A stretch of DNA of 36,941 nt from an uncultured Planctomycetaceae bacterium (GTDB lineage Bacteria; Planctomycetota; Planctomycetia; Gemmatales; Gemmataceae): positions 1 to 36,941 of the forward strand of contig CALARU010000111.1 of assembly GCA_937888715.1 (NCBI GenBank), written 5' to 3'. Positions 15,189-26,147 of the stretch are shown here, piece by piece; positions within the stretch are counted from its first letter, which is position 1, and each line of letters opens with the position of its first letter. Position numbers and translations under genes: made by a program. The notes beneath the pieces were generated by a model. That model did not search any database and was not told the origin of the DNA. It saw only the letters and a list, made by a program, of their open reading frames with translations.

Positions 15189-16058
15189 TTAGCTGCCTAA
15201 AATGCGACTTGCAACACGATCACCTGCAATCGGCTTATCTGACAACGGTTTAACTGGTTGGGCAACAGCTTCATTAGGTGTAACTTCGAGAATACGAACA
15301 GTGCCCAGATACTTGGATTGGGTAGCCACCGCAGAAAGCCTGAAGACTTCAAGAGTATGACCTTTAGTAAGGCCAGCATCAGAGCCAATGGAAATTTTGA
15401 TCAAGCCGCTAGAATCAGCAACCTTGACCATGCCTTCGATATTGTCTGGGGGGGGATTCTTACTCGCTTTGTTGACTTGTGAAAGAGCCGAGGTACCACC
15501 TGATTTGGTGCGTTCCATATCTTTTGCCATTTCCCTCAACTGTACTTCTAATCGTTCATTAGTTGATTTAAAAGTTTGTGCAGAGATTCTTTCGGAAATT
15601 TCCTTTGCGCGAGTCTGTTCCAACAGGGTGGAAATTTCTGAATTGCGTCTCACTTCCGCTTTCAGAATCTCGCTCATCTGCGCATTTTGTTCTTGCCTAC
15701 GACTTGATTCTGCAATCGCAGTCTGAAGCACGATATCTTTTTCATTCAGCTTTTTAGAAGCTTCATTGTATTTCTTATCCAAATCATCCTTCACCCTTTT
15801 AAAATCTTCCACTTCCGTTTTCAGCTTGGCAATTTCAACTTCTTTTTCCTTCACCGAAGAAGAGCCACTTTCCTGAAGCGTTTTATTTTCTTCCTGATAG
15901 GTGGTGTTGCTGGCTTTCAGCACGTCTCGCTCGCGCTGTACTTTTACAATTTCAGCATTCTTATTGGTGTCTGCGGTGAAGACCATCAGACCCATTGCAC
16001 CTACGAACAAACTGAATATTAAATTCACAAATACCAGAATTTTTCCTACAGGTGTCAT
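15189..16058 (-). CDS. Membrane-anchored coiled-coil protein with C-terminal beta domain
   Basis: A 289-residue protein. An N-terminal membrane helix (residues 5-27) is followed by a long heptad-rich coiled coil (about 33-190; many Lys/Glu with Leu/Ile/Val at regular spacing) and a compact beta-rich domain (about 208-289) that reads GMVKVADSSGLIKISIGSD and ends with PIAGDRVASRIL. The beta domain resembles the small barrels at the C-termini of FlgT- or MreC-like envelope proteins; this is a resemblance by eye only. The topology places the coiled coil and barrel in the periplasm if the helix is an uncleaved anchor. It belongs to a run of similarly built proteins and may be part of an envelope-spanning scaffold. 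No named family is recognised. Confidence 0.8.
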   Translation of the reverse strand: MTPVGKILVFVNLIFSLFVGAMGLMVFTADTNKNAEIVKVQRERDVLKASNTTYQEENKTLQESGSSSVKEKEVEIAKLKTEVEDFKRVKDDLDKKYNEASKKLNEKDIVLQTAIAESSRRQEQNAQMSEILKAEVRRNSEISTLLEQTRAKEISERISAQTFKSTNERLEVQLREMAKDMERTKSGGTSALSQVNKASKNPPPDNIEGMVKVADSSGLIKISIGSDAGLTKGHTLEVFRLSAVATQSKYLGTVRILEVTPNEAVAQPVKPLSDKPIAGDRVASRILGS

Positions 16059-16285
16059 GGCCAGATCCTCACTTCAATGTTAGGACTTTACAGCAGTCAA
16101 AAACCATTACTATAATCTTAACAGAAACCAAGCAATATATCTTGACAATAGTAATATTCACATCCGGGCGGGACTATGCCTTGTATTAGAATGGTTGTCA
16201 ACTGCAACAATCGCCAGCCAAAGGAATGGGCCAGAAATAGTTGCAAGCATCTAAAAAAAGGGGTAAGAAGGGAAAGAGTGGCAGG

Positions 16286-17110
16286 TTAGGGGAGGGTAAC
16301 CAAGCCCGAATTGCGTAATTCATTAAAACGTATAACCAATTCTGCGCGTCTTTTGGCCAAATCGAAATGTTCGAGGGTTAAATTAACATAAGCTTGTTCG
16401 ACTGCATCAAACTCTTCTAAGAATTTTTGGCGCTTCAGTTTTTCATCTTCAATGATGGTTTGCAAACCTTTGACAAGAATGATGGGTTTGCCATCGGGCC
16501 CTAGTACAGTTTTATTATCCGCATCTTTTTGAAGGTGATCAGCCTGAAGGTCGACAAGTTTCTTATTTTCCTTTGAGGTATCATCCAGCACTTTTTGCAT
16601 GGCCCTTATATCATTATCGAGATCATCAATTTTTTTACCAAGTGCGTTCAGGTTCTCGAACGGATTCCCATCGCTGTCTTTTATCTCTTCAAATTGTAAA
16701 GGAATAAACTTGGCTGTTAAGCGAATAGGTTGCCCGTCCTTCAAAGTAATGTTCTTGGCAGGTTCTTTCTCGGATGCCTTGGTTTTTAGAAACTCCAATT
16801 GCTCGAAATAATACTTCTCAGTGACTGCAACTTGCGACTCAAGCTTTTGCATTTTTTCACGGCCCGACTGATAACGGTTTACAGCAATCTGAATCGGACT
16901 AGGCGGGCCTTCCTTAGGATCTTTAAACCATAAGTCTATCTTTGCCTTGCGCTGATCAATTTCCTGCCAAGAGCCATCCTTGGGTTTGCCATCTGCCCCA
17001 ATTACCGGAGTAAGAATCGGATTGGAAAAAAGAGAAATCCCCCAAGTTGCAAGGGTGAAGCTGCTTAACGCAAGCAGGTAGACCATTTTTTTGCCGATAT
17101 TAAGAGCCAT
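16286..17110 (-). CDS. Membrane-anchored coiled-coil protein
   Basis: A 274-residue protein not assignable to a named family. An N-terminal membrane helix (about 8-30) precedes a conserved-looking short segment IDQRKAKIDLWFKDP and then long charged helices with coiled-coil character (about 85-120, 160-200 and 225-270). A central IRLTAKFIPLQFEEI stretch is probably beta-structured. The start follows ordinary spacing. It lies 25 bp after the 355-residue gene and 227 bp before the next one, so the cluster may have a second promoter in that gap. It appears to share its overall build with both neighbours. Confidence 0.78.
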   Translation of the reverse strand: MALNIGKKMVYLLALSSFTLATWGISLFSNPILTPVIGADGKPKDGSWQEIDQRKAKIDLWFKDPKEGPPSPIQIAVNRYQSGREKMQKLESQVAVTEKYYFEQLEFLKTKASEKEPAKNITLKDGQPIRLTAKFIPLQFEEIKDSDGNPFENLNALGKKIDDLDNDIRAMQKVLDDTSKENKKLVDLQADHLQKDADNKTVLGPDGKPIILVKGLQTIIEDEKLKRQKFLEEFDAVEQAYVNLTLEHFDLAKRRAELVIRFNELRNSGLVTLP

Positions 17111-17135
17111 GGCTTCCTTTTAACTTTATCCGGGT

Positions 17136-18203
17136 CTAGTGGTTCGCTTCTACCGCACGAAGTTTCTTTTCTTGATCCTCATTACCCACCCTATACCCTT
17201 GAAGTTTTTTATGCACCGAAAACAAGCGTTCGCTGATCAAATGAAAATTACCAACGACCTTGCTGGTTTGATCCCGCTGTTCTTCCAGATCTTTTTCCAT
17301 CTTTGCAAGCAATAGCTTCTCTTTTACCAAAAGAGCTTTCTGGGTTTTTATACGCTCATCATACTCCAGCTTGAATCCTTCGATTTGCTTGGCACGCTTG
17401 GCCCTACGGGCCATCTCATTAAGCAGTTCACGATGCTCCGTAACGAAAATGGCCTCTTCTCTGGTAAGATGAGCCTCCAGATGCTCGAAGGTGCGAGTCA
17501 GCACCACCGCATGCCCATCCATCGCTTTGGAAGCATAATCTGGGCCAACTACCGCTATCAACCTGCGCATCGACTCTTCCGAACCCTCATCCACAACCTG
17601 GTACAGGGACAGTAACAACGCAGCGATAGCAGTTCGGGATTCAGATTTACTGATAATATGCGCTTGTTGTGGGAGTCTGTTTTTTTCGCGCGGTTCTGCG
17701 GATAAGAATAAATTATCCACACTTTCACGAAGGGAAGTGTACTCATCTGCAAGTGTCTTGGGATCAGCCTTGTTGACTAAATCATCGTACTTACGCCTAT
17801 CTACATAAGTAATTGCATTTTCAAGAAGCAACTTCGCAAGAAACTGGGCCTTCTTATCACTACCTTCGATTTCTTTTTCTTTGTCATCAAATTTCTTGTG
17901 CATGCGCTTAACTTCATCGACCTGAGTTAAAACAACCCTGTTGTCGATTTTCAACGGGCCACCCGCATCTTTGAAAATCGCTTTTAATGCGCCATCCTCA
18001 AGGCCATCGAGATTAGATTTGATGTTTATATTTGTTTTAGTGGTTTCATCATCATCAAAAGGCAAGCCATTAAGAACAATATCCTGCCTAAATACCAGAT
18101 AAGTCCAGTTCTTGCGAACGCCCAAATCTTGAACTAAGATAACTCCCAGGCCAAAGGCCAGCAGAGTGTTTAACAGCGCAAAGATTTTTCCAAGTAAGGA
18201 CAT
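17136..18203 (-). CDS. Membrane-anchored coiled-coil protein, first of cluster
   Basis: A 355-residue protein of unknown family. It starts MSLLGKIFALLNTLLAFGLG, a single N-terminal membrane anchor (about residues 4-25), followed by a Lys/Glu-rich body with several helical segments and a strong coiled-coil stretch near the C-terminus (about 260-345). An upstream in-frame ATG at 18227 lacks an RBS, while CAGG lies seven bases before the ATG at 18203, which is therefore chosen. It heads the four-gene leftward cluster and is divergent from a kinase gene starting 250 bp away, so the two may share a regulatory region. A role in the envelope is inferred from its build only. Confidence 0.78.
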   Translation of the reverse strand: MSLLGKIFALLNTLLAFGLGVILVQDLGVRKNWTYLVFRQDIVLNGLPFDDDETTKTNINIKSNLDGLEDGALKAIFKDAGGPLKIDNRVVLTQVDEVKRMHKKFDDKEKEIEGSDKKAQFLAKLLLENAITYVDRRKYDDLVNKADPKTLADEYTSLRESVDNLFLSAEPREKNRLPQQAHIISKSESRTAIAALLLSLYQVVDEGSEESMRRLIAVVGPDYASKAMDGHAVVLTRTFEHLEAHLTREEAIFVTEHRELLNEMARRAKRAKQIEGFKLEYDERIKTQKALLVKEKLLLAKMEKDLEEQRDQTSKVVGNFHLISERLFSVHKKLQGYRVGNEDQEKKLRAVEANH

Positions 18204-18452
18204 CGAATAACCTGTCTCTTGTTCCATAAGATGGATTGCACTAGAGAACCTATCTCTTAATTATATCTTTCCCCATAACAAGGCGTTAGGCCAATAAAAT
18301 GTTACTGATATTTAAGCCAAGCTGTATCTATTAAACCGATCGATATGGATTTGCCGAATGCAACTGTTTCCCAATCCCAACCTCTTTATAAAAAATTCGT
18401 GAAGATTTTGTTCTTAATACGCTAATTATTTAATCTAAGATAAGATGACGCT

Positions 18453-19775
18453 ATGAAAGAACCACCCGAAACCCCTGATGCAACCAAACCCCAAGGATAT
18501 ATCCAACCCTTGGGAAAGATTGGCCAATACGATCTGCTTAAGAAAATAGCAGAAGGTGGCATGGGTTCGATCTATATGGCACGCAGCACCAAGGATAAAT
18601 CGGTGGTTGCGATCAAAGTGATGTCGCCCCTTTATGTTCATAACCCTGTGTTATTAAAGAGGTTCGAACAAGAATACCGGGTTGCAAGCAAATTTAATCA
18701 CCCCAATCTAGTGCGAGCACTCGAATTTGGCACCGATAACGAACTACCTTTTCTCGTACTGGAGTTTGTGAATGGCGAATCGTTGGGTGTTATAATCAGC
18801 AAGCAAGGAAAATTTGAAGAATTGGAAGGGATAAAAATCATTGCCCAAGTCGCCAAGGCACTGAATCAGGTTCATAAAGATAAGCTAATCCATCGTGATG
18901 TTAAACCAGACAACATTCTTGTAGGAAAAAACGGGATAGCCAAGTTGACAGATTTAGGCTTGGTCAAAGAAATATTAGTGGGGGACCTCAACCTGACTCG
19001 GTCAGGAAGGGGGTTGGGAACGCCAAACTTCATGGCTCCAGAGCAATTCCGGGATGCTAAGAATGCAGATATCCGATGCGATATTTACAGTTTGGGTGCC
19101 ACCCTTTACACGATGTTAACAGGGGAACTGCCTTATAAATCGGTCAATCCGCTGGAAACTTGGATGAAAAAGGTACAAAACGATTTGCCCACCCCCCGAG
19201 AGCTGAATCCCCGCATTTCAGAACGAACCGACTGGGCAATTCGTAGAGCCATGGATAGTGATCCTGATATCCGCCCTTCAAGCTGCAGAGAATTTGTCGA
19301 AGATCTTGTGGGCAAGAGTACCCGAAAATCAACAGTTACTACCCCAGCATTAGATAAAACAGAAGCCAAACAACCTATAGAAACAATTTGGTTCATGGCT
19401 TATAACGATGACCAAGGCAAACAGCATGCGGTAAAGGGAACTGCCAAGGCAATCCGAAGAAGCTTTAAGGATGGAATTTTAGAAGACCCATTAAAATACA
19501 AACTGGCTAAAAGTGTAGAAGGCCCATTTGAAGAGATGAAGGTGTTCCCTGAATTTAGAGATTTAGCAGTCCACCTGACCAAGCCGAACTCTACCCCAAA
19601 CTCTAAAACCCAACCAGCCGACCCAGTGCCAAATCCCACCTCAGAACCGACCAGAATCATGACTGGTATTAATCGATCAAAATCTGGCACCCCACCCTGG
19701 GTTTTCTATGTGGTAGCTGCAAGTACCATAATTGCGATTTCTCTAATTATCATTAGTGTTATTTATTTAAAATAA
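18453..19775 (+). CDS. Ser/Thr protein kinase, tail-anchored
   Basis: A 440-residue Hanks-type kinase. The kinase domain (about 26-290) has IAEGGMGSIY (glycine loop), Lys55 in VAIK, HRDVKPDN (147-154), DLG instead of DFG (167-169) and MAPEQ (194-198). A 65-residue segment follows (about 310-375) with W at its start and a GPFEEM motif, reminiscent of GYF_2-like modules in planctomycete kinases; this is uncertain. A Pro/Thr-rich linker then leads to a single membrane helix at 416-439, the very last residues. The kinase is thus tail-anchored with no extracytoplasmic sensor. It is transcribed divergently from the coiled-coil cluster, whose proteins could be its substrates. The RBS is weak. Confidence 0.93.
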   Translation: MKEPPETPDATKPQGYIQPLGKIGQYDLLKKIAEGGMGSIYMARSTKDKSVVAIKVMSPLYVHNPVLLKRFEQEYRVASKFNHPNLVRALEFGTDNELPFLVLEFVNGESLGVIISKQGKFEELEGIKIIAQVAKALNQVHKDKLIHRDVKPDNILVGKNGIAKLTDLGLVKEILVGDLNLTRSGRGLGTPNFMAPEQFRDAKNADIRCDIYSLGATLYTMLTGELPYKSVNPLETWMKKVQNDLPTPRELNPRISERTDWAIRRAMDSDPDIRPSSCREFVEDLVGKSTRKSTVTTPALDKTEAKQPIETIWFMAYNDDQGKQHAVKGTAKAIRRSFKDGILEDPLKYKLAKSVEGPFEEMKVFPEFRDLAVHLTKPNSTPNSKTQPADPVPNPTSEPTRIMTGINRSKSGTPPWVFYVVAASTIIAISLIIISVIYLK

Positions 19776-19868
19776 TAATCAAACAGTAAACCCCTGATGA
19801 AAATCTTGGTAGCAGCTACGCATCATTTCCATCAAGACTTTAGTAATCGTCTGGGCTTTTTATTTTTC

Positions 19869-20768
19869 TTATTCTGTTTCAGAAGAAGCGTGCATTTCTT
19901 GGAGTGTTTTTTCAATGCCTTCTGCAATTTCATCTAAAGGAAGATGATTCAAACTAGATTTATAAAAAGGGTTTTGCAATTCTATCCCAATTTGATCCAA
20001 AGAAAGCAGAGGATAACTCACCAGCATGATTACCAGAGGTACAAGCCAGTCTGTTTCCATCTGATGAAGCAATGCAAAGGGTAAAGTAATAAGAAATATG
20101 GCAACAAATCTGCGGATTTTAACAGAATACACAATCGGTAACGGGGTCTTCAAGATTCGCTCACACGCTCCAATGTGATCAATCAACAAAGATCTTTCCC
20201 TTTCCATCTGAGCAAATGCAAATGAATTGAGAACCCCTTTATCTAATGCTGAACGAAGCAATCCCGCAATCTTTAATGAAACATAAAAAGGCATATGACT
20301 TGATGCAATCAACTTTTCTGCTTCACTTTTTCCCAACAACTGTTCAAACTTTGCCAATTCTTTTTCCGATCGCAATGATGATTTTGCTGCATAAGGAAAA
20401 GCCTTCACCCAGGTTATCAATTCCGTACACCATACTTTGTCCGTAGGGCCATAAGCCAGCGATTCTAAAGCAAGATTTCGACTTTGATTTACAATCCCAC
20501 CCCATAAGGTTCTTCCTTCCCACCAGCGATCGTAGCCTGCATTGGTGCGCAAAATTAACAACAAGCCAAGGGCTGCACCCGCTATTTCATGCGGCCCCAC
20601 CTCCAACCCTAGGTTCACTTGAAAAACATCTTCAATGTAATGATCAACAACACATATGATCGCCGCTATTAATCCAAAAACAAAAACATTTAATATGACA
20701 ATTGGGGTTACGGAACCCTTAATTAAAACTGCTTCACGCCAGAATGTAACAAACGATTCAAACTTCAT
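19869..20768 (-). CDS. Bestrophin-family anion channel
   Basis: A 299-residue membrane protein of the bestrophin (RFP-TM) family. The family hallmark is clear near residues 70-100: LILRTNAGYDRWWEGRTLWGGIVNQSRNLA. There are two N-terminal membrane helices (about 24-42 and 62-75) and a hydrophobic pair near 210-245. Bestrophins form pentameric anion channels; bacterial members conduct various ions and several eukaryotic members pass chloride and bicarbonate. AAAGGTGG precedes the start. The gene begins 17 bp after the stop of a class III cyclase on the same strand, so the two are very probably co-transcribed; that pairing is discussed as a finding. Length and motifs are complete. Confidence 0.9.
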   Translation of the reverse strand: MKFESFVTFWREAVLIKGSVTPIVILNVFVFGLIAAIICVVDHYIEDVFQVNLGLEVGPHEIAGAALGLLLILRTNAGYDRWWEGRTLWGGIVNQSRNLALESLAYGPTDKVWCTELITWVKAFPYAAKSSLRSEKELAKFEQLLGKSEAEKLIASSHMPFYVSLKIAGLLRSALDKGVLNSFAFAQMERERSLLIDHIGACERILKTPLPIVYSVKIRRFVAIFLITLPFALLHQMETDWLVPLVIMLVSYPLLSLDQIGIELQNPFYKSSLNHLPLDEIAEGIEKTLQEMHASSETE

Positions 20769-20785
20769 CTAAACCACCTTTGCCT

Positions 20786-23014
20786 TTATTTCTGATGCAT
20801 CTGTTGACCACCATCCCATGAAGCATCAGGGGGATTCTGCAGATAATCCCTGCAACGATCAACATAAATTTGACACAACTTATCATCAGGATTTTCACTT
20901 GCTAATTTTTGGAATAAACTCAACCCAGCCGGCCAGTCTTTTTTAACATAAGCAGAAAACGCAATTTTGAAATCAGTACAAAACTTTACTATCTTACTGG
21001 ATGTCTCATTGGCCAGGCCCATAAGTTCATGTACCATGATTTTCTTATCTTTCCCCTTCACGCCTACCAAATCAATCGGTCGAGAAACCAACCTATCATC
21101 ACAAGCCTTTAAAGTGGCATCTGAAATCATAATCGTTGTATCATAAACCTTGTTTAATCCTTCAAGCCGACTTGCAAGGTTTACATTATCACCAATCACG
21201 GTATAGCTTAAATGTTCTTCAGTACCAATGTTTCCAAGCACCACATTACCAGTATTAATACCAACTCGGGCTTTGAATACCGGCTTATTCAATCTAGCCC
21301 ATTCTTTTTGCAGGAAGGAAAGATTGTGTAGACCTTGAATTGCAGTTTTGCAAGCTTTGAATGCATAGTCATCGCAATCCCTGGGGGCATTCCAATACGC
21401 CATCACTGCATCACCAATGTATTTATCAACTGTACCTCCGTTTCTTATGATCACCGAAGAAAAACAGCCGAGGTATTCGTTTAATTGAAGCACTAAATCA
21501 TTAGGGGAAAGGTTTTCAGAGTAATAAGTGAAGTTTGCAATATCTGCAAACATGATAGAAACATCTTTTTCTTTCCCGCCTGGTATAGCGCCGGTTCCTG
21601 CATCAAATAAACTTTTAAGCACATCCTTGGGCAGATACTGCGTAAAAGCTTGAAGCCCAATTTGCATCAAACTCATGGAATGAGCCAAATTCTTAATTTC
21701 TATGATTTTTGAATCATCTCTAACTTTATGGGTAAAATCAAGCTTTCCAATTTTCTGAGCCAGTAAAACCAAACTTTCTATGGGTTTAGAAGCCGACCGT
21801 GCAAGTAAGAACGAAAGAATAACGCTGATAACCATCACCGAGGCCAAAATACCAATAGCCAAATAAAAATGCCAGTAAGCATTTGAAAACAACACTTTCT
21901 CAGGCACATAAAGGCACACATACCAATCAGGAGCGGTTCCTGGTAAAACCGTTTTAATAATCCCGACATAATCTACCCCATCAACATCAAAGTGGAACAA
22001 ACTTTCAAAATCTCCACTTATCTCGAGTCCACTTAAAACCGTATCAGGCAGACTCAGGATCATTTTTTCAATAGCAGGATCCTTCATATCTTTTGGCAGG
22101 GAATAATAAATGGTATCCCCATCCGAATCTTTTGGAAAAACATTTTCTTTGCGGGAGTGGGCTAAAATTATTTTCGTGCTATCTGGAAGTCTTTCAAAAA
22201 TAAAACCATTGATCCCTCTTTTATGTATTTCCTGCATTGTTTCATTAAGATAATCACTAATCCATTCGGTACTGATACCCATTGACAAAACCGCAAATAA
22301 TTCACCTTTGTCATCTCCTAGGCCTGTCGAATAAAATAAACCCGTTCTGATTGCCTTAAAATTTTTCGAAAAGGTAAAGCAATTAGTCCATCCCCCTTTT
22401 TTTAAAACAGGTTGTGCTTTTCCCTGAACATAAAAGGGCCTTTTTCGGTAGTCATATCCACCGTTTTCATCCACCGATAAAGGTTTATTTGGAAAATCAG
22501 GATAAGAATAAGTTTTTAAAGTAAATGTGCCTGAAGGATTTGGGATTGTTTCCTCAATAATGATATCTTTTTCAGTATAAAGTGAACTTTCACTAAATCG
22601 CGAAAGGCTTTTTGTGTCATATTTGAATCCAGGTTTTTCATCCAGCGAAAGTCTAAGTGAATATCCTGTTTTATCTTCTGTAAAAATGGTGTGTCCTAGG
22701 TTGTGATTTACAATTAGGCTGTGAGAAAGAGTACTCAAAATCAACGGATAATCTACCTTACCATTTTCCATTCTGAAAGCGAAACGATATGTTGCCTCGA
22801 TAACATCTTCAGCATCTTGAAGAAAATTTTCCACCTTAAGAGTGACCGCTCGGGTAAGCAAATGGCCAACCTCTTGGGTGTAATTAACCCGGGCCGTATA
22901 AGAAAGCCTAAGACTTAACAAAGTGATTGTCAGGCCAGAAAACAAAGTCAAACCAATAAAACAAATCAACAGTGCAGTTCTAAGACGGTACTTACTCAAC
23001 AACGGTATTTTCAT
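20786..23014 (-). CDS. Class III adenylate cyclase with Cache and HAMP domains
   Basis: A 742-residue transmembrane cyclase. Order: membrane helix (about 13-35), a large extracytoplasmic Cache-type sensor (about 36-375, with RKRPFYVQGKAQPVLKKGGW), a second membrane helix (about 380-405), HAMP (about 406-458) and the class III catalytic domain (about 483-665). The catalytic domain has metal-binding Asp491 (FADIANF) and Asp535 (YIGDAVMAYW), base-binding Lys531, and Asn612/Arg616 in VNLASR. At the second base-specifying position, Thr605 occurs in SYTVIG where class IIIa enzymes have Asp, which marks it as class IIIb. ATP is therefore the likely substrate. A C-terminal extension (about 670-742) may be one TPR-like helical unit. 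AGGA precedes the ATG. A bestrophin gene follows 17 bp downstream. Confidence 0.93.
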   Translation of the reverse strand: MKIPLLSKYRLRTALLICFIGLTLFSGLTITLLSLRLSYTARVNYTQEVGHLLTRAVTLKVENFLQDAEDVIEATYRFAFRMENGKVDYPLILSTLSHSLIVNHNLGHTIFTEDKTGYSLRLSLDEKPGFKYDTKSLSRFSESSLYTEKDIIIEETIPNPSGTFTLKTYSYPDFPNKPLSVDENGGYDYRKRPFYVQGKAQPVLKKGGWTNCFTFSKNFKAIRTGLFYSTGLGDDKGELFAVLSMGISTEWISDYLNETMQEIHKRGINGFIFERLPDSTKIILAHSRKENVFPKDSDGDTIYYSLPKDMKDPAIEKMILSLPDTVLSGLEISGDFESLFHFDVDGVDYVGIIKTVLPGTAPDWYVCLYVPEKVLFSNAYWHFYLAIGILASVMVISVILSFLLARSASKPIESLVLLAQKIGKLDFTHKVRDDSKIIEIKNLAHSMSLMQIGLQAFTQYLPKDVLKSLFDAGTGAIPGGKEKDVSIMFADIANFTYYSENLSPNDLVLQLNEYLGCFSSVIIRNGGTVDKYIGDAVMAYWNAPRDCDDYAFKACKTAIQGLHNLSFLQKEWARLNKPVFKARVGINTGNVVLGNIGTEEHLSYTVIGDNVNLASRLEGLNKVYDTTIMISDATLKACDDRLVSRPIDLVGVKGKDKKIMVHELMGLANETSSKIVKFCTDFKIAFSAYVKKDWPAGLSLFQKLASENPDDKLCQIYVDRCRDYLQNPPDASWDGGQQMHQK

Positions 23015-23111: not shown

Positions 23112-24215
23112 CTACTTGCATAATAAGTTGACTGCAAATGATGCTAGCCAGTGTTCGCCAGCGTAATCTCCACTACTAATATGCCCAAGGGAAGCTTCTG
23201 CATGTTTCCTTGCGCTATGCAAAAAAATCATTCGTCTGGGATCACCCTCTGAAAGCGCGAGCCCAATATTTTTCATGCACCATGCCCTACTCAGGTTTAA
23301 ACCATCAAGATGAACAATCTGGGGGTCTGTACGATCAGAAACAACAGCAGGACTAAAAAGGCTGGCAGGTTCATTTTGCAACAAGTTGGGATAAAACTTA
23401 TCAAGCCAAATAGAGAACTCTTTTTGAGGCAGAATTCTCCGCATTAAATCAGCTTCCATCAGGCTTGGAGAAAAGAAATCAGCACCATCGGGTTCCCACT
23501 TTGCAGGAATCATTTCATCTTTAAGATAATAATCCCTAGCTCGCTTTATTATCAATTGCTCGAGTTCCTTGTTTTCCATCTGCCTCGAATAATCAAGAGC
23601 GTATGTCAATCCAAAAGCCGTGTTCGAATGCACGCCACTGCGAATAGGGTAAGTTTGCTTGGGGAAATATGAAATATAGCGCCCGACTATGATTTCTTCG
23701 AGAGGTTTTAGATGTTGTGCCAGTTCTTTTCCCAGTGGGTCTTCCCAAGTGCGAAGTTCCAAAGTAAGTTTTAAAAACCATGACCAACCATACGGTCTTT
23801 CGAAAGATTTACTTTCAGGTTTCAGAAAGAATGCAGCTTCTGCTAACAAGTTTTCTTTAGTGATATTCTTTGCCAAAGCTTTTCGTATTTCCTCTGCTTC
23901 TTTTAATTGAGGAAACTCCTTCAAAATCTTCACCAGCATCCAATGGCCATGAACCGAACTGTGCCAGTCATAGCACCCATGGAATGCAGGATAAAGTTGT
24001 TTAGGGCTGAGAATATCCTTGGGGCCTTCAAGAACATTGCCCGGTTTATTGGGGTATTCCCTGTGAATGTTTTTAAGTGCCAGGCCTGCGAATTTTGTGG
24101 CTTGTTCTTCGCTGAGTTTCAGCATAAAACCTTCCGGTGATTTAATTTGTTGTGCACTAAGTGGATTGCAACAAAGGAAACTGAACAAAAAAAGAAAGCA
24201 AGATCTTGGCATCAT
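23112..24215 (-). CDS. DUF2891 secreted protein
   Basis: A 367-residue protein of the DUF2891 family, recognised from YPAFHGCYDWHSSVHGHWMLVKIL near residues 75-98. It is all-helical in appearance, with a signal peptide (residues 1-21, ending in PLSAQ), so it is exported. The fold suggests an alpha/alpha toroid like those of glycan-active enzymes, and the conserved Asp/His cluster in CYDWHSSVHGH could be a catalytic or metal site; neither is established. Its ATG overlaps the stop of the upstream sulfatase gene in an ATGA junction, so the two proteins should be made in fixed proportion. That supports a joint role in sulfated-glycan breakdown. Confidence 0.85.
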   Translation of the reverse strand: MMPRSCFLFLFSFLCCNPLSAQQIKSPEGFMLKLSEEQATKFAGLALKNIHREYPNKPGNVLEGPKDILSPKQLYPAFHGCYDWHSSVHGHWMLVKILKEFPQLKEAEEIRKALAKNITKENLLAEAAFFLKPESKSFERPYGWSWFLKLTLELRTWEDPLGKELAQHLKPLEEIIVGRYISYFPKQTYPIRSGVHSNTAFGLTYALDYSRQMENKELEQLIIKRARDYYLKDEMIPAKWEPDGADFFSPSLMEADLMRRILPQKEFSIWLDKFYPNLLQNEPASLFSPAVVSDRTDPQIVHLDGLNLSRAWCMKNIGLALSEGDPRRMIFLHSARKHAEASLGHISSGDYAGEHWLASFAVNLLCK

Positions 24216-25594
24216 GAACCCTTTTTATTGTTAGCCTTCTTTTCCGCACCTTGTTTATAGTTTTTCCACCAGTCGGGGCCTTCCGCTTCGATTTCTTTCG
24301 TCAGCTTTTTAATTTCCATCGTCATCTCTAAAAGTTTTGCCTGCTGCGTTTCATTGACCATTTCTTTTTCACTAGGATCTTCTTTGAGATTATAAAGTTC
24401 AAATTTGGACATCTCTTCGTTAGCGATAATTTTCCAATCTCCCTGCCTCATTGCAATTTTCATCACCCCAGGCGCGATATCGCAGTGCCAATATAAAGAC
24501 TTAGCCCTTTTCACTTCAGATTTTGTTATTGCATCGAGGAAATTACCGCCATCAATGGTGCGATCTTGAGGAAGCTTTGCGCCACTAACATTACAAGCCA
24601 TGGCAAAAAAATCGGAACCAATAACTGGAACATCACAGGTAATGTTTGCATTCACATGGCCGGGCCAACGAACAATTCCTGGAACCCGTATGCCACCTTC
24701 GTAAACCGCACGCTTTCTACCACGCAACCCGCCGGTAGTGCCTCTGCCCGGGGATTTGATTCCATCACCTTCGGGGCCGTTATCGGAAGTGAAAAATACC
24801 AATGTGTTTTCCGCAAGCTTCATATCATCCAATGATTTCATCAATTTCCCAAACGCATCATCCATCTGGGTTACATCAGCAAGGTATTCAAGCTGCACCT
24901 TATCTTCAATTCCCTCGTACATTTTTTTATACCGATCCGCAGCAGCGATCGGGTAATGAGGTTCATGGCTCCAAACCGCCAAGAAAAAAGGCTTGTCTTT
25001 ATCCCGCTTATTACCCAACCAATCAATGGCCTCTTTTACAATAAAAGGTGAAGAGTGATCATCAGTCATAGTAACGGGCTGCCCATTTCGAACAAAGTTA
25101 ACAGGGAAGGCATGACTAGGGCCTGCATTATTTTGGGTGGCTAACCAATGATCATAACCATGATCGTTAGGTTGTGGCTGAGTGGGTTTGTTGAAATGCC
25201 CATTGAGGTGCCATTTTCCCACATGGCATGTGGTGTATCCAACTTGTTTAAGTAGAAGGGGAAGTGCAAGTTCACTTTTACGGAGATGGATTTCACGATT
25301 TTCAGGAATCCAAGTGAAGACACCATTGCGATAAGGAGTACGGCCAGTCAATAAAGCAGAACGAGAAGGGGAGCAAACAGCGCCTGCACTATAGCACTGG
25401 GTAAATTTTGCGCCTTGCTTTGCAAAGGCATCAAGGTTTGGGGTTTTGCAAAGTTTATTACCAAAGCAAGCAAGATCTCCCCACCCAAGATCATCTGCGA
25501 GGAAAAGAATAATGTTGGGAGCCTTGGCAGCATGAAGAGGAGAGCCAATTAAAAATAGCGAGCAACAAGCAAACGCAAAGGTTGATAACTTCAT
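24212..25594 (-). CDS. Secreted sulfatase (arylsulfatase type)
   Basis: A 460-residue sulfatase with a signal peptide (about residues 1-22, ending near PLHAA). ADDLGWGD near residue 35 supplies metal-binding aspartates. CSPSRSALLTGR near residue 75 is the Cys-type motif whose Cys is converted to formylglycine by the maturase. VGKWHLNG and FTSDNGPEG carry the other metal and sulfate-binding residues. The ATG at 25594 is preceded by GAG at normal spacing; a TTG four codons upstream is less likely. Planctomycetes carry many such enzymes to desulfate algal or host glycans. It is translationally coupled by ATGA to the DUF2891 gene. The exact substrate cannot be read from the sequence. Confidence 0.93.
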   Translation of the reverse strand: MKLSTFAFACCSLFLIGSPLHAAKAPNIILFLADDLGWGDLACFGNKLCKTPNLDAFAKQGAKFTQCYSAGAVCSPSRSALLTGRTPYRNGVFTWIPENREIHLRKSELALPLLLKQVGYTTCHVGKWHLNGHFNKPTQPQPNDHGYDHWLATQNNAGPSHAFPVNFVRNGQPVTMTDDHSSPFIVKEAIDWLGNKRDKDKPFFLAVWSHEPHYPIAAADRYKKMYEGIEDKVQLEYLADVTQMDDAFGKLMKSLDDMKLAENTLVFFTSDNGPEGDGIKSPGRGTTGGLRGRKRAVYEGGIRVPGIVRWPGHVNANITCDVPVIGSDFFAMACNVSGAKLPQDRTIDGGNFLDAITKSEVKRAKSLYWHCDIAPGVMKIAMRQGDWKIIANEEMSKFELYNLKEDPSEKEMVNETQQAKLLEMTMEIKKLTKEIEAEGPDWWKNYKQGAEKKANNKKGS

Positions 25595-25892
25595 AATAAT
25601 TCTCAATAGTTGGGCAAGATTGTAGAAGACAAAAAGAGGGCATCACCATGTCATAAATTACACAAAAGAAGCTTAGGAAGGGTAAAAAATATTGAACAAG
25701 AGGCAAAAAAAGAGAAAAGGTTGGGCCATAAAAAGCAGAATAAAAGCGAAAATAACGATGAAATACGATGAAAACTGGGATCAGAGCAAAAGCTGTCTTA
25801 CCCGAAAAGTCTCAAATTGCTATAAAAAGCTACTGTAAGCAAAGATAAGTCGATGTTTGAAAGCATCGTAAGTAAACAAAAGGAGATGAATC

Positions 25893-26147
25893 ATGCCAGC
25901 CTCAAGACCGAGAACAACCGCTTGGAAAAAACGCACCAAGATACGAAAAGCCAAATTACTGAAAGCATATGATACAAAACTTGGGATTCCCCCAGCAATA
26001 ATGGAAGTCAAGAAAAAGGGCCCCAAAGTATCCAAGAAGACACCAGGAACTGCGCCTGCTGCCAAAGCTGCTCCTGCTGCCAAAGCTGCTCCTGCCAAGG
26101 CTGCACCCGCTGCCAAAGCCGCTCCTGCCAAGGCTGCCAAGAAATAA
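25893..26147 (+). CDS. Small Lys/Ala/Pro-rich histone-H1-like protein
   Basis: An 84-residue, highly basic protein. The N-terminal half (1-46) is Lys/Arg-rich with a short non-repetitive core KLLKAYDTKLGIPPAIMEV; the C-terminal half is a low-complexity tail of AAK, APA and KAA units, like the tails of histone H1 and bacterial H1-like proteins such as HctA/AlgR3-type. It probably binds nucleic acid, though a basic ribosome- or RNA-associated protein is also possible. AAGGAG seven bases before the ATG and a strong terminator 20 bp after the stop mark an autonomous, well-expressed gene. The tail is encoded by imperfect 15-18-bp tandem units (about 26058-26142) that may vary in number between strains. 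Confidence 0.82.
   Translation: MPASRPRTTAWKKRTKIRKAKLLKAYDTKLGIPPAIMEVKKKGPKVSKKTPGTAPAAKAAPAAKAAPAKAAPAAKAAPAKAAKK
26058..26142 (+). repeat. Imperfect tandem repeat inside the H1-like gene
   Basis: Units of the form GCTGCCAAAGCTGCTCCT recur back to back with 15- and 18-bp lengths, all in frame and coding for Ala-Ala-Lys-Ala-Ala-Pro. Copy changes would lengthen or shorten the basic tail without shifting the frame. Confidence 0.75.

Follow-up and report, generated by a model that had tools for sequence, protein, structure and literature searches.

We analysed a 36,941-nucleotide stretch of DNA (hereafter, the window), which carries a class III adenylate cyclase gene (20786–23014; an open reading frame of 742 amino acids) and, downstream of it on the same minus strand, a bestrophin gene (19869–20768; 299 amino acids). 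The stop codon of the cyclase and the ATG of the bestrophin are separated by 17 bp (20769–20785). Ninety-seven base pairs upstream of the cyclase, also on the minus strand, is a gene encoding a DUF2891 protein (23112–24215), as annotated by Pfam. This gene overlaps by 4 bp a sulfatase gene (24212–25606, minus strand; PF00884), which is likely the head of the transcription unit containing the cyclase. On the other side, a Pfam-annotated Ser/Thr protein kinase gene on the plus strand (18453–19775) converges with the bestrophin gene. Further out, the window encodes three successive proteins without any Pfam match (15189–18227), conserved in sister species, and, upstream of the sulfatase gene, an open reading frame with an Ala/Gly-rich repeat (25820–26140; AAGAALAGAALA), similar to one in genome G001.

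The bestrophin matches the Bestrophin_2 profile (PF25539) over its full length (residues 9–291; E = 8e-71; 239 bits against a cut-off of 27), aligns with the Klebsiella bestrophin KpBest (E = 4e-33), and contains the signature RTNAGYDRWWEGRTLWG. The PF01062 profile had no match anywhere in the window genome; bacterial bestrophins belong to PF25539. The pore neck is formed by Ala65, Leu69, and Leu73, residues that are unlike those of both KpBest and human Best1.

The catalytic domain of the cyclase (PF00211; 21035–21571, minus strand) spans residues 482–660 (E = 1e-22; 81 bits). It retains the two metal-binding aspartates (Asp491 and Asp535) and the transition-state residues Asn612 and Arg616. 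The base-specifying residues are the adenine-specifying Lys531 (codon 21422–21424) and the class IIIb-type Thr605 (codon 21200–21202), both on the minus strand, giving the overall pattern DKDTNR. The gene arrangement and these two residues, with Thr rather than Asp at the specificity position, had been described in an earlier sequence-only reading of this DNA, and our open reading frames, profile matches, and alignment bear out both descriptions. Hydropathy indicates helices at residues ~10–38 and ~379–410, and hence a two-helix membrane protein. A HAMP match at residues 403–455 was sub-threshold (19.4 bits against a cut-off of 25), and no dCache or Cache profile directly matched the window cyclase itself; homologues with the same layout do match dCache_1 (E-values down to 4e-13), and a TPR-like tail was likewise assigned through homologues. 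An AlphaFold2 model built from three sequences had a pLDDT of 33 and was discarded. The solved structures nearest to the catalytic domain are Cya2-derived domains, P. aeruginosa CyaB, and Spirulina CyaC. Judging from this architecture, the protein is most likely an ordinary ligand-sensing membrane adenylate cyclase: the dCache-like periplasmic domain would capture a small molecule, the HAMP domain would pass the resulting change on to the catalytic part, and the catalytic homodimer would produce cAMP.

The sequence-only reading took the threonine as a mark of class IIIb cyclases, several of which respond to bicarbonate. We surveyed related enzymes for this residue. In a sample of 68 class III catalytic domains from the window genome and its relatives, 42 have the full Lys/Thr pattern and 4 have Lys/Asp. 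Within the window genome, Lys/Thr accounts for seven of the 11 cyclases and Lys/Asp for one, the other three combining Asp or Asn with Gly. Thr605 alone thus does not set the window cyclase apart, as threonine is the commonest state. Since related Lys/Thr enzymes such as Anabaena CyaB1 and P. aeruginosa CyaB are reported to be activated by bicarbonate or CO2 (PMC10117731, PMC8230467), such stimulation would be possible for the window cyclase as well. Two paralogues in the same genome, 74% (C121) and 50% (C246) identical to it, have neither a bestrophin nor a carbonic anhydrase nearby within the stretches read, which speaks against a cyclase–bestrophin unit. The three cyclases with Asp or Asn plus Gly (contigs 235, 175, and 361 of the window genome) carry an unusual combination and may act on a different substrate.

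We then examined how widely the adjacency is conserved. It was found in five species of one planctomycete genus, whose cyclases are 72–85% identical. The spacing varies from 17 bp in the window genome to 188 bp in G004, 228 bp in G001, ~245 bp in G005 (read from overlapping contig ends), and 1944 bp in G006, in which a 591-amino-acid gene on the opposite strand separates the two genes. Nothing about the pair can be learned from genomes G002 and G003, where the relevant contigs are missing or end inside neighbouring genes. We scanned GTDB genomes with a bestrophin alignment and retained the best 80 loci (L127–L206). Of the four loci from this genus, three have a cyclase catalytic domain near the bestrophin (the fourth ends at a contig edge), compared with none of the other 76, which span several phyla. 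On the bestrophin tree, the adjacency corresponds to one gain (branch support 100). Conservation outside close relatives, the check named in the sequence-only reading, therefore goes against the proposed unit: the adjacency is confined to one genus, and even there its spacing and intervening genes vary. In one sister species, the cyclase is duplicated in tandem (L032 129–3534; G005 contig 363), a locus at which cyclase paralogues seem to break assemblies.

The genes around the pair help to interpret its persistence. The DUF2891–cyclase order is kept in all five species, with gaps of 97, 97, 97, ~75, and ~43 bp, a steadier spacing than that to the bestrophin, and G001 equally preserves the surrounding genes (sulfatase, DUF2891, kinase, and three others). 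Because the whole neighbourhood is conserved to the same degree, the lasting pair is no evidence of coupling. G001, G005, and G006 share conserved sequence immediately upstream of the bestrophin, G006 doing so despite its intervening gene. The region of 190–245 bp that precedes the bestrophin in sister species is absent from the window genome, and the 17-bp closeness is thus due to the loss of this conserved stretch. Such a short gap makes co-transcription likely in the window genome; promoter and terminator scans performed no better than on shuffled sequences, except for one marginal terminator-like site within the G001 bestrophin gene. Four sister species also have an ArsR-type gene and a gene for a His-rich protein between the bestrophin and the kinase (L061 6783–7552), both of which are missing from the corresponding interval of the window (19776–19868). 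Given that each genome of the genus carries 5–13 class III cyclases and that the family has 81 bestrophins, we estimate that chance adjacencies are expected on the order of 0.1, before allowing for the selection of the finding, so that one such adjacency is unsurprising. Overall, the cyclase–bestrophin pairing, real yet lineage-specific and made up of two members of known families, is probably incidental.

A different partner recurs beside the bestrophin. In the 80 best loci, no true neighbour family is commoner than beta-carbonic anhydrase (PF00484), which occurs in 26 of them, mostly in the same orientation and no more than ~110 bp away. These pairs occur in Planctomycetota, Melainabacteria, Pseudomonadota, and Myxococcota. 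The anhydrase lies upstream of the bestrophin in Planctomycetota and Melainabacteria and downstream in Methylobacter and Nitrotoga, suggesting multiple origins of the pair. The zinc-binding and Asp-Arg motifs (Cys-x-Asp-x-Arg and His-x-x-Cys) are intact in 25 of the 26 anhydrases, the exception being a 74-amino-acid fragment. In 50 of the 80 loci, neither a cyclase nor an anhydrase is near the bestrophin, partly owing to short contigs. The association also held for loci not chosen by their neighbourhood: across 95 genomes from the family, 23 of the 81 bestrophins lie no more than 5 kb from a beta-carbonic anhydrase (~0.6% expected for each), and eight lie on the same strand at a distance of 150 bp or less. 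These 23 include many relatives of one another and so do not represent 23 independent events. It is this recurrent partner that ties the channel, and not the adjacent cyclase, to CO2/bicarbonate handling. Of the inorganic-carbon signalling and transport unit put forward in the sequence-only reading, the link between bestrophin and inorganic carbon is therefore probably right, by way of the anhydrase neighbours, and the cyclase–bestrophin unit finds no support. Our search of the open-licence literature found no description of a bacterial bestrophin with a cyclase, nor of one with a carbonic anhydrase, although such descriptions may exist outside it.

In five loci (L131, L134, L135, L142, and L148), the order is ArsR–carbonic anhydrase–bestrophin, apparently the ancestral arrangement. 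Four sister genomes retain the ArsR–carbonic anhydrase pair apart from the bestrophin (L237 3521–4622, L238 3017–4153, L239 386–1488, and L240 4617–5753). No beta-carbonic anhydrase adjoins the bestrophin in the window or at this locus throughout the genus, and no anhydrase of the partner type was found in the window genome, where the best candidate is 52% identical and sits beside a second bestrophin. Since the ArsR–carbonic anhydrase pair survives elsewhere in the genus, the bestrophin apparently parted from these partners before it joined the cyclase; the direction of this change, read from the tree, appears to be separation from the anhydrase.

Other bestrophin genes were encountered in the genus. 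The second bestrophin of the window genome belongs to another clade and lies behind a Ser/Thr kinase gene, 1.6 kb from a divergent beta-carbonic anhydrase gene (L068 2480–5687; contig 82). Five other genomes from this genus (G002–G006), as well as G034, show similar spacing. In G003, a C-terminal bestrophin remnant, 91% identical, adjoins a gene for a SulP–carbonic anhydrase fusion (L065 6649–9699; contig 187), a fusion gene that no other genome of the genus was found to carry.

The account we favour, and consider fairly probable, is that two separate systems stand side by side: an anion channel, probably for bicarbonate, parted from its anhydrase, and an unrelated sensor cyclase. The bestrophin would be a pentameric anion channel from a clade of bacterial proteins operating with beta-carbonic anhydrase, passing bicarbonate (or chloride in exchange) across the membrane as the anhydrase interconverts CO2 and bicarbonate. 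It would have been separated within the genus from its ArsR–carbonic anhydrase partners, with the anhydrase subsequently lost from the window genome, and the cyclase would move with the upstream sulfatase–DUF2891 genes. That the bestrophin handles bicarbonate in concert with carbonic anhydrase is the most likely assignment, drawing on gene neighbourhood, the bicarbonate permeability of human bestrophins (PMC8496536), and the proposed role of algal BST1-3 in supplying bicarbonate to CAH3 (PMC6708349). Counting against the separate-systems account are the persistence of the adjacency over five species, the 17-bp gap, the Na+ conduction of KpBest, neck residues that match neither type, and the 50 loci in which neither partner gene is near the bestrophin.

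The first two of these observations would fit a functional bicarbonate unit, in which the class IIIb cyclase signals bicarbonate by means of cAMP, the bestrophin carries it, and the cyclase takes the anhydrase's place. The Lys/Thr catalytic site, the bicarbonate- or CO2-activated relatives of the cyclase, and the anhydrase-linked clade of the bestrophin also agree with such a unit. We nevertheless regard it as quite unlikely: the pair is absent beyond the genus and interrupted in G006, the bestrophin has a separate upstream region in sister species, threonine is the majority state of these cyclases, and the paralogous cyclases have no bestrophin or anhydrase near them. More doubtful still is a genus-specific replacement, in which a bicarbonate-responsive class IIIb cyclase would have taken over from the anhydrase beside a bicarbonate-conducting bestrophin; if true, the two genes would form a bacterial unit for both sensing inorganic carbon, via cAMP, and moving it.

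The third and fourth observations bear on the cargo of the channel. KpBest conducts Na+ (PMC8496536), and a Methylobacterium bestrophin homologue has been linked with chloride export (PMC4271186), so the window bestrophin might be a chloride or cation channel that serves to balance osmotic pressure or charge and plays no part in inorganic carbon, its anhydrase neighbours reflecting pH or charge balance only. Against this stands the recurrence of the anhydrase, both upstream and downstream of the bestrophin and among distant phyla; we consider the reading rather improbable, less so than the bicarbonate unit. A somewhat better, still tentative, candidate concerns the cyclase half and is compatible with the separate-systems account: the cyclase may belong to the sulfatase–DUF2891 group and sense a putative breakdown product of sulfated polysaccharides, the window bestrophin having merely been appended to the transcript by a deletion. 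The conserved DUF2891–cyclase order and short spacing, the overlap of the sulfatase and DUF2891 genes, and the putative dCache-like periplasmic sensor are consistent with this, and the paralogues that stand elsewhere without sulfatase or DUF2891 neighbours weigh against it; as to the ligand, the nearby sulfatase gene gives no more than a hint.

We find the wider carbonic anhydrase–bestrophin pairing a more interesting result than the cyclase pairing. It bears on the physiological role of bacterial bestrophins, for which one Na+ channel characterized in vitro stands against the bicarbonate conduction of animal and algal proteins. The repeated pair points to inorganic carbon, and a two-gene test is feasible in carbonic-anhydrase-deficient E. 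coli.

Several known systems resemble parts of this locus. The class IIIb cyclases P. aeruginosa CyaB, Spirulina CyaC, and Anabaena CyaB1 share the Lys/Thr base-specifying residues and the catalytic domain with the window cyclase, which has a putative dCache-like and HAMP sensor module where they have N-terminal modules of their own. KpBest shares the full-length family match with the window bestrophin and differs from it in the neck, with Ile/Ile/Phe in place of Ala/Leu/Leu, and in that relatives of the window bestrophin adjoin carbonic anhydrase. SulP–carbonic anhydrase fusions similarly join an anion transporter to a beta-carbonic anhydrase, but do so in one fused protein and with a transporter fold unlike that of bestrophin. 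A parallel in function would be Chlamydomonas BST1-3 and the lumenal CAH3, in which a bestrophin is believed to cooperate with a carbonic anhydrase, as we propose here (PMC6708349). The algal partners are eukaryotic thylakoid proteins and do not form a gene pair, whereas here the link lies in the bacterial gene neighbourhood, and the window genome lacks the anhydrase.
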